NCBI GenBank assembly: GCA_036511855.1
Contig: DATCBN010000077.1
Location: 1 to 39,718, forward strand
Length of the DNA stretch: 39,718 bases
Direction: 5' to 3'
DNA from: Candidatus Eremiobacteraceae bacterium
GTDB taxonomy: Bacteria; Vulcanimicrobiota; Vulcanimicrobiia; Eremiobacterales; Eremiobacteraceae
Positions 3,739-37,033 of this stretch are shown here, piece after piece (the first letter of the stretch is position 1; each line of letters begins with the position of its first letter). The translations under genes and the position numbers were made by a program. The notes beneath the pieces are model-generated. The model saw nothing but the letters and a program-made list of their open reading frames with translations, ran no database searches and had not been told where the DNA came from.

Positions 3739-3753
3739 GTATTAGGGCAAGCC
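3739..3753 (+). repeat. Truncated head of the palindromic repeat
   Basis: GTATTAGGGCAAGCC repeats the 5' flank and left arm of the dispersed palindrome and directly precedes the full copy starting with GTACTA at 3754. It has no right arm, so it is a half-element in direct tandem. Confidence 0.6.
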
Positions 3754-3759
3754 GTACTA

Positions 3760-3778
3760 GGGCAAGCATCGCTTGCCC
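3760..3778 (+). repeat. Dispersed palindromic repeat, perfect copy, GTACTA flank
   Basis: GGGCAAGC-ATC-GCTTGCCC, an 8-base inverted repeat with a 3-base loop, preceded by GTACTA. It lies between the divergent response-regulator and thpR genes, in the thpR direction. Confidence 0.95.
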
Positions 3779-8138: not shown

Positions 8139-9125
8139 CTACATTCGTGTGAAAGCCTCAACTGTATTCAATACGCCGCTGCTATTCGCTCCGCCGACAA
8201 CGTATATTGTATGACCGATAACGCGGCTAGCCAGAGCCCAACGTGTTGTCGGCATGGACACCGTCGTGGTCCAAGTGTTCGTTGATGGATTGTAAACTTC
8301 GACCGTATGTCTTCCCTGGGTGCCGTTAATGCCGCCGATGGCATACAGTCTGTCCCCAAGAATGCTCGAAGCTAGACAGCAGCCTTTCCTCTTCATGGGC
8401 GCCTTGGTTGTCCAAGTATCCACGACAGGATCGTACGCCTCAACGGTATTTATAGAGTACGACCCACCTACCGCGTAGAGCACGCCGTTAATAACTCCAA
8501 CAGCGAGGTTGGGGCGTGGCGTCGGCATGGAAGCTTTGGTGGTCCAGGTGTCTGTCGTTGGATCGTAAGCCTCAACGGTGCTTAGGTAGGGGTCGCTTTC
8601 GCCGCCAACGGCGTAGAGTATGCCGTTGACGACGCCGACAGCTAGACCGAAGCGCCCAGTTGGCATGGGTGCCTTGGTGGTCCAGCTGTCTGTCATAGGA
8701 TTGTATGCCTCAACCATATTCAAGCCGCAGTTCCCGAACTTGCAGGTACCATTGTAGCCACCGACGGCATAGAGTATTCCGTTGACGACACCAATGGCTA
8801 GCGCGTACCGCGCGGTCGGCATAGGTGCTTTAGTCGTCCAAGAATCTGTCGTTGGATTGTAAGCCTCGACCGTGCTCAAGTTTTTATTGCTAGCATCATA
8901 GCCGCCAACTGCGTAGAGTATGCCGTTGATGGCCCCCGCCGCTAGCCAAGTGCGCGCGGTCGGCATCGGTGCCTTGGTGACCCAAGTCCCGAGGGCTTGT
9001 GGCGCCACTCGGGCGCCTTCTGTTCCGGGACTACGAACAATTGTGGTATTGCTCGCGCCTGAACATCCGGACACGGCCGCGATGAGCGCGGCAGCAACCC
9101 ATAGTCGGGTATTTCTCAGATTCAT
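8139..9125 (-). CDS. Kelch-repeat beta-propeller lipoprotein
   Basis: A 328-residue exported protein. The N-terminus MNLRNTRLWVAAALIAAVSGC ends in a lipobox, so Cys is probably lipidated. Six kelch blades follow, each with the pattern W-x-TKAPMPT-x-R, hydrophobic strand, NGILYAVGG, then VEAYNP-T-DSW; the set could close a single six-bladed propeller. A strong Shine-Dalgarno site (GGAGGG) eight bases before the ATG at 9125 fixes the start. The blades are very similar to one another even at DNA level (tagagtatgccgttga-like segments recur). The gene is visibly less GC-rich than its neighbours and lies opposite the flow of the pyr genes, hinting at recent acquisition or expansion. Ligand unknown. 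Confidence 0.88.
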   Translation of the reverse strand: MNLRNTRLWVAAALIAAVSGCSGASNTTIVRSPGTEGARVAPQALGTWVTKAPMPTARTWLAAGAINGILYAVGGYDASNKNLSTVEAYNPTTDSWTTKAPMPTARYALAIGVVNGILYAVGGYNGTCKFGNCGLNMVEAYNPMTDSWTTKAPMPTGRFGLAVGVVNGILYAVGGESDPYLSTVEAYDPTTDTWTTKASMPTPRPNLAVGVINGVLYAVGGSYSINTVEAYDPVVDTWTTKAPMKRKGCCLASSILGDRLYAIGGINGTQGRHTVEVYNPSTNTWTTTVSMPTTRWALASRVIGHTIYVVGGANSSGVLNTVEAFTRM

Positions 9126-9289
9126 TTTCCGCCCTCCGAATAAGCATGAGTTCCGATCTTCATATTGCTCCCTAGGCGTCGCGCCAGCGTCCACTCCGCC
9201 AGGGGCCACGCGGACGGCTCGGCGGCGGCAGGCGGAATCGTATACTCCTCGCTTCGAAACATTCGGGCTGGCCGGCGCGTAATAGCCAC

Positions 9290-14213: not shown

Positions 14214-15305
14214 TTACGTTCGATGGGCAAGCGTTGCTTGCCCTAATACAGGGTCGGCCGGTTCTGCGGGCTCGTTGACCGACATCGAATCGAACAGCGT
14301 GGAGCCGCGCTGGCTTTGCGCCAACTCGCCTTCCTGCTCTTCGTAGATCTCCGAGATCGACCGATTTGTGCTGATGCGCTTGATGGTCTCGGCGAGCATG
14401 GGCGCGACCGAGAGCACCTTGATCTTCTCGCCGCGGATCTCGTTCGGCACCGGGATGGTGTTGGTGACGATGACTTCCGCAATCGGCGACTCGATGAACT
14501 TTTTGGCTGCGTCACCGGCGAATATCCCGTGGGTGGCGCACGTGATGACCGAAACGGCGCCGCGCTCGAGCAGCGCTTCGGCCGCCTTGACGAGTGTGCC
14601 GCCTGTGGAGATCATGTCGTCGATGATGATGGCCGTCTTGCCTCTCAGGTCGCCGACGACTTCGCTCACTTCATTGACGTCCGGCCGCGGCCGGCGCTTG
14701 AAGACGATGGCGACGGTGGCCTGGAGCCTCTTCGCAAACGCTTCGGCGCGCGCCACGCCGCCGGCGTCCGGCGACACGACCACATATCCGGGTCCGATCA
14801 TCTTCTTTGAATTGATGAGGTGATTGGCAAGGATGTAGCTGGCGGTGAGGTTGTCGACCGGCTGATCGAAGAAACCTTGGATTTGGGCGGCATGCAGATC
14901 CACGGTCACGATGCGATCGGCGCCGGCCGTCACCAGAAGATTCGCGATCAGCTTGGCCGAGATCGGCTCGCGGCCTTTCGTCTTTTTGTCTTGCTTGGCG
15001 TAGCCGTAGTACGGGATGACGGCCGTGATGCGATAGGCCGACGCGCGCTTAAGCGCGTCGATCATCAACAGCATTTCCATGAGCGAGTCGTTCACGCCAC
15101 AGAGGCCGTCGGCCGACTTACATATGGACTGGATGACGAAGACGTCGGCGCCGCGCACATTTTCGTGGATCTCGATGCGCCGTTCGTCGTTGGCAAAGGT
15201 GGTGACGAGCGCCTTGCCCAGGCGCGTGCCCATCCGGGCGGCGATCTCCTCAGCCAATGCGGGGTTGGAGGTGCCTGAGAAGAGGACCGGTTTTGCCGTA
15301 GCCAT
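14214..15305 (-). CDS. prs: Ribose-phosphate pyrophosphokinase with repeat-derived C-terminal tail
   Basis: A 363-residue PRPP synthase making PRPP from ribose 5-phosphate and ATP, the PRPP used by PyrE. Landmarks: LFSGTSNPALAEEIA at the N-terminus, FVIQSICKSADG, the flexible-loop region YYGYAKQDKKTKGREP, VDLHAAQIQGFFD, and the PRPP loop AIIIDDMISTGGTL. A typical enzyme is about 315-320 residues, so about 40 are extra. The extension ends in VLGQATLAHRT, whose first eight residues are the palindromic repeat translated in frame. GGGAGAA lies nine bases before the ATG. It heads the minus-strand prs-rplY-pth group and is divergent from uvrB. Confidence 0.94.
   Translation of the reverse strand: MATAKPVLFSGTSNPALAEEIAARMGTRLGKALVTTFANDERRIEIHENVRGADVFVIQSICKSADGLCGVNDSLMEMLLMIDALKRASAYRITAVIPYYGYAKQDKKTKGREPISAKLIANLLVTAGADRIVTVDLHAAQIQGFFDQPVDNLTASYILANHLINSKKMIGPGYVVVSPDAGGVARAEAFAKRLQATVAIVFKRRPRPDVNEVSEVVGDLRGKTAIIIDDMISTGGTLVKAAEALLERGAVSVITCATHGIFAGDAAKKFIESPIAEVIVTNTIPVPNEIRGEKIKVLSVAPMLAETIKRISTNRSISEIYEEQEGELAQSQRGSTLFDSMSVNEPAEPADPVLGQATLAHRT
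14225..14243 (-). repeat. Palindromic repeat at the 3' end of prs, translated in frame
   Basis: On the coding strand GGGCAAGC-AAC-GCTTGCCC preceded by GTATTA, oriented with prs. It encodes most of the last residues (VLGQATLA) before the stop at 14214. Confidence 0.95.
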
Positions 15306-15347
15306 AACAGCGGTTCTCCCATTCCGTTTTTTTGGGTTGCCGTACTA

Positions 15348-15366
15348 GGGTGACCAACGGTCACCC
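15348..15366 (+). repeat. Stem-swapped variant of the palindromic repeat
   Basis: GGGTGACC-AAC-GGTCACCC has the same 8-3-8 geometry, the GGG start and the same CGTACTA flank as the main family, but a different, fully self-complementary stem. It lies between divergent prs and uvrB. Confidence 0.75.
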
Positions 15367-15483
15367 CCTGTCGCTCCCCACTCCGCCGCGACCGAGTTTA
15401 ATCAAGCCATACTCTCTATCGCAGGCGCCGAATCAACTTCTACGAAGCCATCCTTTCGACCCCTGGCGATGGAGCGCCCTACT

Positions 15484-17532
15484 GTGCCGAAATTCGAAGT
15501 CATATCCCCGTTTTCGCCCTCAGGGGACCAGCCGCAGGCTATCGTGGCGCTCGCCGAAGGCATCCGCCGCGGCGACCGCGCTCAGACCTTGCTCGGCGTG
15601 ACGGGCAGCGGAAAGACCGCGACCATGGCGTGGGCGGTCGAGGCTGTGCAAAAGCCCACTCTTGTTCTATGCCACAACAAGACGTTGGCGGCGCAGCTAT
15701 GCGGCGAGTTCAAAGAGTTCTTTCCAAAGAACGCCGTCGAGTATTTCGTCAGTTACTTCGACTACTATCAGCCCGAGGCGTACATCGCGTCGTCGGACAC
15801 GTACATCGAAAAGGACTCCTCGATAAACGACGAGATCGAGCGGCTGCGGCACTCGGCCACACAGTCGCTGCTGACGCGGCCGGACACGATCATCGTCGCG
15901 TCGGTTTCCTGTATCTTCGGCTTGGGCTCGCCTTCGGACTATATGGAGATGTCGCTGAACCTGAAGCGGGGCCAAGAATTCGACCGCGATAAGCTGCTGC
16001 GCAAGCTTGTGGACATGCAGTATTCGCGCAACGACATCGCGATGGTGCGCGGAACGTTCCGGGTTCGCGGCGACGTGCTCGAATATGTCGCGGTGGACGA
16101 CGAGGTGGTCACGCGGCTGGATTTCTTCGGCGATCAGCTCGAAAGCATCACACGCATCAATCAGGTCACCGGCGAATTGATCGAAGAAGTCGACGAGTTG
16201 ACCATCTTTCCCGCGAAGCACTTCATCACGCCCGAAGAAAAGCTCCGCCGTGCGTGCGTTTCGATCGAAGAAGAGCTGGTGGACCGCGTCGCGTTCTTCA
16301 AGCGCGAGGGGCGGCCGCTCGAGGCGCAGCGCATCGAGATGCGGACGCGCAACGATTTGGAAAGTCTGCGCGAGCTCGGCTACTGCAACGGCATCGAAAA
16401 CTATTCGCGCCACCTAACCGGACGCGCGCCGGGTCAGACACCGTTCTGCCTGATCGATTTCTTCCCCGACGATTGGCTGCTGTTCGTTGATGAGTCGCAC
16501 GTGACGCTGCCTCAGGTGCACGGGATGTACCAGGGCGACCGCTCGCGCAAGGAAGCGTTGGTGGAGTACGGGTTCCGCCTGCCGTCGGCGCTGGACAACC
16601 GGCCGCTCACGTTCGACGAATTCGATAAGCACATCAATCAAGTCGTCTATGTCTCGGCCACGCCGGGCAAGTACGAGCGCGAGCATGCGACGCAAATCGT
16701 GGAGCAGATCATCCGCCCCACCGGCCTGGTCGATCCGCAGATCGTGCGCCGGCCCACCGCCGGTCAAGTGGATGACCTCATGGAGGAAATCCGCAAGCGG
16801 GCCGCTTCGGGAGAGCGCACGCTTGTCACCACGCTCACAAAGAAGATGGCCGAGGATCTGACCGACTATCTAATCGAGGCGGACGTGAAGGCGCGCTACC
16901 TGCATTCGGAGATCGAAACCCTGGAGCGCATCGCCATCCTGCGCGACTTGCGGTTAGGTGAATTCGATTGCCTGGTGGGCATAAATCTGTTGCGCGAAGG
17001 TTTGGATCTGCCGGAAGTGTCTTTGGTGGCGATACTCGACGCGGACAAAGAGGGCTACTTGCGTTCGGAGACGTCGCTGATTCAGACGATTGGCCGCGCT
17101 GCGCGCCACGTGAGCGGCATGGTGTTGATGTATGCGGATAACCTGACCGCATCGATGGAGCGCGCCATCAATGAGACCGAACGCAGGCGGGCGCGTCAGT
17201 TGGCGTACAACGCAGAGCACAACATCGATCCGCAATCCATCCGCAAGTCGATCCGGGATATATTATCTTCGGTGTACTCCGATCGCGAGCAACATGCGAA
17301 AGGCAAGAAGGCACTGCGCGAAGTGCCGCGCGACGTGTTGATGGCCACCATCACCAAGCTCGACCGCGAGATGCGCAATGCAGCGGCCAAATTAGAGTTC
17401 GAGAAGGCGGCGGCGCTGCGAGACGAGCTGTGGGAGCTGCGCAAACAGTTGCCTGACGGCGGGGACTCGCGGCTTTCGAAAAAAGCGCCGAACGTGTTCG
17501 GCCAGAAAGTCCGCGAAGCCGCCCTGTTCTAG
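15484..17532 (+). CDS. uvrB: Excinuclease ABC subunit B
   Basis: A 682-residue helicase-like damage-verification subunit of nucleotide-excision repair. Walker A GVTGSGKT is at 38-45. The DNA-gripping beta-hairpin region ([20 protein letters not shown]) spans about 91-110. Helicase motifs include [29 protein letters not shown] and QTIGRAARH. The UVR motif that binds UvrA/UvrC is at about 621-655 ([19 protein letters not shown]). I prefer the GTG at 15484, giving [18 protein letters not shown], because GGAG lies nine bases upstream and it matches family N-termini; an ATG at 15469 is also in frame. Its partner uvrA is 11 kb away in this window. Confidence 0.96.
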
Positions 17533-17598: not shown

Positions 17599-17619
17599 GG
17601 CCGACCTTTATGGTCGGCC
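17599..17619 (+). repeat. GGCCGACC-type hairpin repeat
   Basis: GGCCGACC-TTTAT-GGTCGGCC, an 8-base stem with a 5-base loop, with GTGG before it. The same element occurs inverted at 34216-34236. The 5-base loop and stem differ from the main family, but it sits next to a main-family copy. Confidence 0.8.
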
Positions 17620-18576: not shown

Positions 18577-18606
18577 GCGGCTAAACATTCGAGCGCAAAC
18601 GTACTA

Positions 18607-18625
18607 GGGCAAGCATCGCTTGCCC
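18607..18625 (+). repeat. Dispersed palindromic repeat, perfect copy, GTACTA flank
   Basis: GGGCAAGC-ATC-GCTTGCCC, 30 bases after the ferritin-like gene stop and oriented with it. Confidence 0.95.
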
Positions 18626-18652
18626 GGCGTTCGCGCCGCACTGACTGTAGGA

Positions 18653-18671
18653 GGGCAAGCATCGCTTGCCC
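18653..18671 (+). repeat. Dispersed palindromic repeat, perfect copy, TGTAGGA flank
   Basis: GGGCAAGC-ATC-GCTTGCCC, in direct tandem 46 bases after the previous copy, but with the other flank type. Confidence 0.95.
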
Positions 18672-20840: not shown

Positions 20841-20950
20841 ACTTCTCCCCTAAGTCCGCCCTAGCTTGACCCCATGATACCCAAATAAACTGGGTCTATG
20901 ATGTGAAGCCGGTGAGACTTGTGGACTATTCCGCACGCGGCTTGTCGTAG

Positions 20951-20969
20951 GGCAAGCATCGGCCGCCCA
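20951..20969 (+). repeat. Dispersed palindromic repeat, degenerate copy
   Basis: GGGCAAGC-ATC-GGCCGCCC, with a damaged right arm that leaves only part of the stem. It lies between the NHL lipoprotein gene and the secreted protein gene at 20990, and is probably a decaying copy. Confidence 0.6.
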
Positions 20970-28114: not shown

Positions 28115-28737
28115 TTAGTTCGCTTCGCCGGGCCGCTTAAAGAGACCGTAGCGGATTTCGAACGTCGGTCCAAAACCGACGTTCCGGTCCGCCGTGCGGC
28201 CATCGACGAAGTTGGCCGAGAAGTTGCAAAGCTGACATTAAGGAAGTCCGGGCCGCGCATGTGCGGCTGGTCGGCGGCGCTCGCCTCGAAGAATGTGGCG
28301 TGCGGCGAGCGCCAAGACCCGCGCAATTCATATCGCGTCCCCGCAAGTCGCGACATGTTGACCTCGTCGCGCCCCACGAACGGATAGTTCAATTGCGGCG
28401 TGCGCTGCGCGACGATGCCGCTCCCGATCCCGGCCCAATATTGACCGCGTCGATCGACCGGAACGCTCACGACACCGTTGAAGAGGCCGAAGCTCTGCGT
28501 GATCGCGCCCAAGCGGTCGCTTTTCGCGTGCGCGCCGTCGACGACGGGAATCCCTTCGAGGTGCAGTCGCAGATTTTTCCAGCGCTGAGTGATCTCGATG
28601 AACGCGCCGAGCGCAGAGCCCCGGACATCATTTCCATTTTCGAAATGACCGCCGGAAATTGAAAGGCCTTGCATGCCGATCTGCGTGTCAGCGCTGACGG
28701 CGGCAGGGACAGCCGCCAAGACCGCCGACAGAAGCAC
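28115..28737 (-). CDS. Outer-membrane beta-barrel-like protein with apparent frameshift
   Basis: A secreted beta-strand-rich protein of about 207 residues. The main frame ([64 protein letters not shown]) is coherent to about base 28226. After that it becomes Arg/Ser-rich, while the neighbouring frame becomes coherent: [19 protein letters not shown] then [17 protein letters not shown], ending at 28115 four bases from the convergent DUF1036 stop. One extra base near 28226 would restore a continuous reading. The start is also uncertain: GTG 28737 has no ribosome-binding site, whereas an ATG near 28777 in another frame encodes a basic MRRRQN leader. This may be a pseudogene or an assembly error. 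A lipid A deacylase-like role is possible but unproven. Confidence 0.6.
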
Positions 28738-28906
28738 CGAACAAAGCGCGCGATGTAACGTTTTGGCGCCTTCTCATTGCGGTCGTGCGCCTCCCGGATT
28801 CGTTTGCCCTAATCGGTTGCCCCATTCGTCCGTCTCGGAAGGATGGCAATCATCGCGTCCCTTGGAGGTCGGGCCCTCACCGTATACCGAAATACGCTCG
28901 TCGCCC

Positions 28907-31936
<3,030 letters not shown>

Positions 31937-34215: not shown

Positions 34216-37033
<2,818 letters not shown>

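Follow-up and report, generated by a model that had tools for sequence, protein, structure and literature searches.

A rare stem variant of a GTAG-related REP family in the prs-uvrB gap of a Candidatus Eremiobacterota genome

A small hairpin between prs and uvrB in a Candidatus Eremiobacterota genome (3.07 Mb, 112 contigs) is a copy of a family of repetitive extragenic palindromes (REPs), and its stem is a rare one within this family. In the explanation that we prefer, and to which we assign a probability of about 0.85, the REP is spread by a RAYT, its stem drifts through compensated changes, the folding of doublets acts as a force on the stems, and the rare stem in this gap arose by insertion or conversion. 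The family has a high copy number, a head on one side only, a covarying stem and RAYT genes flanked by REPs, and it occurs in all three genomes of the genus that were compared.

The element occupies positions 15342-15366 of the window (i.e. the whole stretch of 39,718 nucleotides that was analysed). On the plus strand, the head GTACTA (15342-15347), a GTAG-type REP tag with C in the fourth place followed by TA, precedes the perfect 8-3-8 hairpin GGGTGACC-AAC-GGTCACCC (15348-15366), which has the TGACC stem type. Direct reading agrees with the first-pass annotation on the coordinates, the (C)GTACTA head, the GGG start and the perfect 8-3-8 layout, and also on the complementarity of the arms, which pair at eight of eight positions despite the base changes. 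By contrast, the statement that six bases differ in each arm has to be corrected, as GGGTGACC differs from the common GGGCAAGC at three of eight positions per arm (pairs 4, 5 and 7), and six is the sum over both arms. Folded as a DNA strand, the hairpin has a predicted energy of -8.4 kcal/mol (z -2.87), and one of 200 shuffles folded equally well. The flanking genes diverge, with prs, encoding ribose-phosphate pyrophosphokinase, on the minus strand (14214-15305) and uvrB on the plus strand (15469-17532). Thus, the hairpin, which lies 36 bases upstream of prs and 102 bases upstream of uvrB, is extragenic, as expected of a REP. It is a singlet with no inverted partner in the prs-uvrB gap and, in this respect, is not a REPIN. 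Closer to uvrB, the motif TTCTACGAA at 15438-15446 has the conserved counterpart TTCTNCGAA in nine of 11 relatives in the alignment; at a guess, it could be a damage-response operator.

Exact patterns were counted genome-wide, and free hairpins were scanned for in a sample of 631,719 bases (21% of the genome). The pattern GTACTAGGG-N13-CCC has 332 matches in the genome and none in the reversed control, and GTANNAGGG-N13-CCC, which accepts any GTANNA head, has 571 matches with two in the reversed control, i.e. the copy number of a high-copy REP. The latter pattern has 41 and 66 matches in two congeners (three in each control) and between zero and five in each of 38 further relatives (controls 0-7). 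The window itself holds 19 matches to the family pattern, and two common-stem REPs of this family, with GTACTA and GTAGGA heads, stand in tandem on its plus strand at 18601-18671. The scan of the 21% sample returned 184 GTA-headed 8-3-8 hairpins with at least seven of eight pairs, while block-shuffled controls gave 7, 14 and 6, and the same scan with five other three-base heads gave 19, 28, 17, 7 and 1. The tag is one-sided in that the GTA head is on the 5' side only, and the 3' flank is little conserved. In the 21% sample, the REPs often cluster.

Several further repeats were recorded in the course of this work. A common-stem REP lies in frame within the uvrA coding sequence (28673-31936) at 29705-29729 of the window; at this site, which falls between the UvrA interaction and DNA-binding domains, both congeners are 18 bases shorter. 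A second dispersed hairpin, GGCCGACC-TTTAT-GGTCGGCC, is present at 17599-17619 and 34216-34236 and several times in one congener (G002), and a Kelch-repeat protein with tandem DNA repeats is encoded on the minus strand at 8139-9209. A GACC-pattern scan of named genomes found matches in three contigs (8, 10, 32) of the Candidatus Eremiobacterota MAG JABCYQ01, in two Candidatus Electrothrix contigs and in one gammaproteobacterial MAG.

Of the eight stem pairs of the family, three covary, and they do so not freely but as a set of six discrete, perfectly paired types. In a sample of 168 copies from 21% of the genome, picked regardless of the five inner pairs, there are at least six perfect stem types (CAAGC 118, TGAGC 25, CGAGC 6, and TGACC, CGACC and TTAGC 1 each), in line with the earlier suggestion of several subfamilies. 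The pattern used for picking fixes GGG and CCC, and the three outer pairs can therefore not vary in the stem-type or covariation tests. The five inner pairs are perfect in 152 of the 168 copies, compared with 95.7 on average, and never more than 109, in 2,000 shuffles of the right arms, although this and the other shuffle tests count related copies as independent and are, therefore, too generous. Of the 50 copies whose stem is not plain CAAGC, 34 are fully paired, and a further 12 carry changes in a single arm. Across 66 distinct copies from the three genomes, 97.2% of cells pair and the covariation score is 0.252 versus 0.113 after shuffling, with none of 500 shuffles as high; changes on both sides are found at pairs 4, 5 and 7 in 15, 29 and 6 sequences, respectively, and the number of pairs with such changes is not above that of the shuffles (267/500). 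The first-pass annotation had proposed that selection or copying acts on structure plus flank and not on stem sequence. Its covariation part is real, but independence of stem sequence goes too far because pairs 6 and 8 are near-invariant, few letters are used elsewhere and one stem accounts for 70% of the sampled copies. The exact stem GGGTGACC/GGTCACCC occurs once genome-wide. In other words, the hairpin is the sole one of its type as far as the exact stem goes, but not as regards the family or the GACC type, of which there are two stems in this genome (the TGACC and CGACC copies) and two and four in the congeners. A neighbour with one mismatch, GGGTGAGC with GGTCACCC, is on contig C109.

The genome carries two RAYT genes, on contigs C109 and C4. 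The C109 protein scores over the NCBIfam cut-off (95.5 versus 80 bits) and keeps the motifs HVH and YITQNP, which we take to be the HUH pair and the catalytic-tyrosine region of the RAYT family, respectively. PMC3733652 agrees with this assignment. REPs in inverted orientation lie on both sides of the gene, the 5' one with one broken pair. The C4 gene (L032, 1426-1892) is 73% identical to it over 114 residues, scores below the cut-off (62.3 bits) and loses its frame before YITQNP, either through a real mutation or through an assembly error; it is likewise flanked by REPs in inverted orientation, mainly with GTACTA and also with GTAGGA heads. Thus, both genes have the flanking repeats of a RAYT-linked REP system (REPtron), and only C109 also has a protein over the cut-off. 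The Y1_Tnp family is found in 12 of 41 genomes, including all three of the genus. The RAYTs of the two congeners share 41% and 33% identity with the C109 protein; a search near them for family REPs with a GT head and seven or more of eight pairs found none.

In the model that we suggest, the REP, a short palindrome tagged by a head at its 5' end, would be copied round the chromosome; the likeliest agent is the genome's own RAYT, an HUH single-strand transposase that would act on the strand once folded. The enzyme would read the head, the loop and the intact fold and, to judge from other REPs in vitro, would accept many paired stem swaps while rejecting mismatches; if so, stem types would drift as compensated pairs. 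In the Stenotrophomonas maltophilia REPtron, stem swaps were mostly tolerated, while a mismatch in mid-stem strongly lowered cleavage (PMC8266576). By analogy, we infer that these results, and the published ones on doublets, may hold for this genome. A second force would then keep at least two stem types, because unequal stems of a doublet would fold alone and equal stems would collapse together. The 15342 copy would have its place here as a solitary REP whose rare TGACC stem differs by a single pair from both the abundant TGAGC and the genus-wide CGACC, and by three pairs from CAAGC.

The doublets in the genome are consistent with such a second force. Doublets and heads were counted among 159 copies with one of the six perfect stems, i.e. 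after 25 imperfect or unrelated matches had been dropped from the 184, and a head-out doublet was defined as two perfect-stem copies at most 60 bases apart. Of 29 head-out doublets, 23 have unequal stems versus 11.1 expected, a number reached in none of 20,000 shuffles, and 20 of these 23 combine CAAGC with TGAGC. Tandems behave in the opposite way, with unequal stems in 10 of 50 versus 19.2 expected. When doublets were folded with DNA energies and no G-T pairs, and a two-hairpin fold was taken as fewer than eight pairs across, 20 of the 23 unequal doublets were predicted to form two hairpins and three to fold across, while all six equal-stem doublets were predicted to fold across into one hairpin. 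Nine of these 20 predicted two-hairpin folds nevertheless retain six pairs between the two heads. It is, therefore, likely that several stem types are kept because unequal doublets let their hairpins fold separately. Heterodimers are described as preferred in most REP families without obvious explanation, and protection from hairpin clearance has been suggested (PMC3733652). At C44:74449-74452, two back-to-back REPs share one palindromic GTAC, giving CCCTAGTACTAGGG.

How did the rare stem come to lie in the prs-uvrB gap? Both congeners have a REP in the same gap and orientation. That of G001 reads GTAGTA GGGCAAGC ATC GCTTGCCC, and that of G002 is decayed but shows the same inner stem. Because the 15342 copy sits where both relatives have a common-stem REP, it probably reflects a further REP insertion or a conversion. 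The hairpins are 21, 21 and 19 bases from a common GCGACCG in the three genomes, and the congener REPs directly adjoin TTCTCCC on their other side. In this genome, by contrast, TTCTCCC and the head are separated by 21 bases (15321-15341, plus strand) that are absent from both congeners; they contain T7-GGGTTGCC and resemble the remains of an earlier REP or spacer. We see an even chance that a second, rare-stem REP inserted independently into the same gap and that the older copy was lost: T7-GGGTTGCC resembles REP spacers or collapsed REPs elsewhere in the genome and REPs often lie together, but this resemblance is a short one that chance may explain, and no source copy with a TGACC stem is known. 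Somewhat less probable, in our view, is that an ancestral REP of the genus had its CAAGC stem replaced in situ by TGACC, through gene conversion from another copy or a series of compensated mutations. The shared gap and orientation, the near-equal spacing to GCGACCG, and the single-pair and one-mismatch intermediates elsewhere in the genome speak for such a change. Moreover, among 11 REP-bearing intervals of the window that were compared with the congeners, a REP is held in common at three, i.e. the prs-uvrB gap, 14.2 kb (with G001 only) and 20.9 kb (in all three genomes), and the REPs at the two other sites differ in stem or loop. At 14.2 kb, CAAGC here corresponds to CGAGC in G001, and the REP at 20944-20968 has a broken right arm here, while its inner stem is still paired in both congeners. 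On the other hand, a change in place would have to alter three pairs with compensation as well as the loop and the head, and it leaves the 21 extra bases of this genome to be explained next to congeners whose REPs abut TTCTCCC. A second swap in place with a GACC stem was looked for; at ~152 kb on C4, both congeners share a CGACC-type REP, but this genome has none. All in all, we slightly favor entry of a second REP over a stem exchange in place.

The position between divergent genes and close to the prs start, together with the perfect dyad symmetry, would also suit an operator or terminator of prs or uvrB that is unrelated to REPs. We consider this very improbable. The scan of 15250-15500 for terminators and promoters gave no match of either sort, with no intrinsic terminator (a G+C-rich hairpin followed by a T-run) on either strand, and because prs and uvrB diverge, a terminator is not needed between them; no Rfam family reached its gathering threshold anywhere in the window. 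The alignment also covers eight sequences from other genera, with prs adjacent to uvrB in six. None of the eight has a hairpin of this family there, and the 8-3-8 hairpins present in two of them are unrelated. Finally, this hairpin shares its head and outer stem with the dispersed family.

The tag provides some counter-evidence to the preferred explanation, a REP spread by a RAYT. In the sample, 102 of 159 heads read GTAC and 45 read GTAG. Most pattern matches in the congeners (29 of 41 and 58 of 66) have a GTAGTA head. The 15342 copy itself reads GTAC and, in the strict sense, falls outside the GTAG superfamily; since the family and the congeners also have GTAG, we go no further than to call it a REP of a GTAG-related family. 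GTAC is a tag that abolished cleavage by the S. maltophilia RAYT (PMC8266576). Also, the RAYT that is flanked mainly by GTACTA REPs, on C4, is the one that is out of frame and below the cut-off. The GTAC copies stand apart in other ways. GTACTA heads are preceded by C in 64 of 95 cases and by T in 27, while GTAGGA heads are preceded by C in one of 35 and by T in 31. Half-REPs, i.e. a collapsed head plus left arm, lie directly before 26 of 102 GTAC copies versus none of 57 others (Fisher p 3e-6; the count rests on one self-made text pattern), for instance at C74:21827, C11:14901 and window 3739-3778, and in 23 of the 26 cases, their stem type is that of the following full REP. It is conceivable, if rather unlikely, that this lineage switched its tag from GTAG to GTAC and expanded, that two stem classes are held apart by doublet folding, and that GTAC copies spread by a distinct route that leaves half-REPs. 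Retargeting of the cleavage site by GTAC, by analogy with the Marinomonas assays, was considered and rejected, as GT and GA directly precede only three and none of the 102 heads, respectively; GT within eight bases downstream is equally common with GTAC (42/102) and GTAG heads (17/45).

REPs with a GTAG tag form a superfamily of families GTAG-1 to GTAG-24 (PMC3733652). The design described there is overall similar to the one found here: high-copy palindromes of 20-40 bases have the tag at one end, subfamilies have alternative complementary stem residues, RAYTs are flanked by the repeats, unequal doublets are mostly preferred, and in GTAG-1 and GTAG-2 the tag is likewise separated from the stem by two unpaired bases. 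However, the published variation is at the second and third tag positions, while 102 of 159 copies here read GTAC. The S. maltophilia REPtron shares the perfect 8-base stem and the 3-base loop, but its stem directly follows GTAG, while two bases intervene here, and its cleavage is abolished by the GTAC that the 15342 copy bears (PMC8266576). REPINs of Pseudomonas fluorescens are inverted REP doublets linked to RAYTs; as described in PMC3116915, they form one long hairpin, while most doublets here are unequal and predicted to form two.

Our literature search found nothing that joins Eremiobacterota with repetitive extragenic palindromes, and PMC10558695 mentions Eremiobacterota and RAYT. Thus, as far as this search shows, the family is a new one in a phylum new for REPs, although of a kind already known. 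Because REPs and their stem variants are known from other bacteria, the element itself is ordinary, and the single 15342 hairpin is of little importance by itself. The unusual points are the GTAC tag in so many of the sampled copies and the half-REPs before GTAC copies only. The finding extends REP-RAYT systems to Eremiobacterota and provides a natural data set on why REP doublets prefer unequal stems and on whether the guide tag can change in nature.
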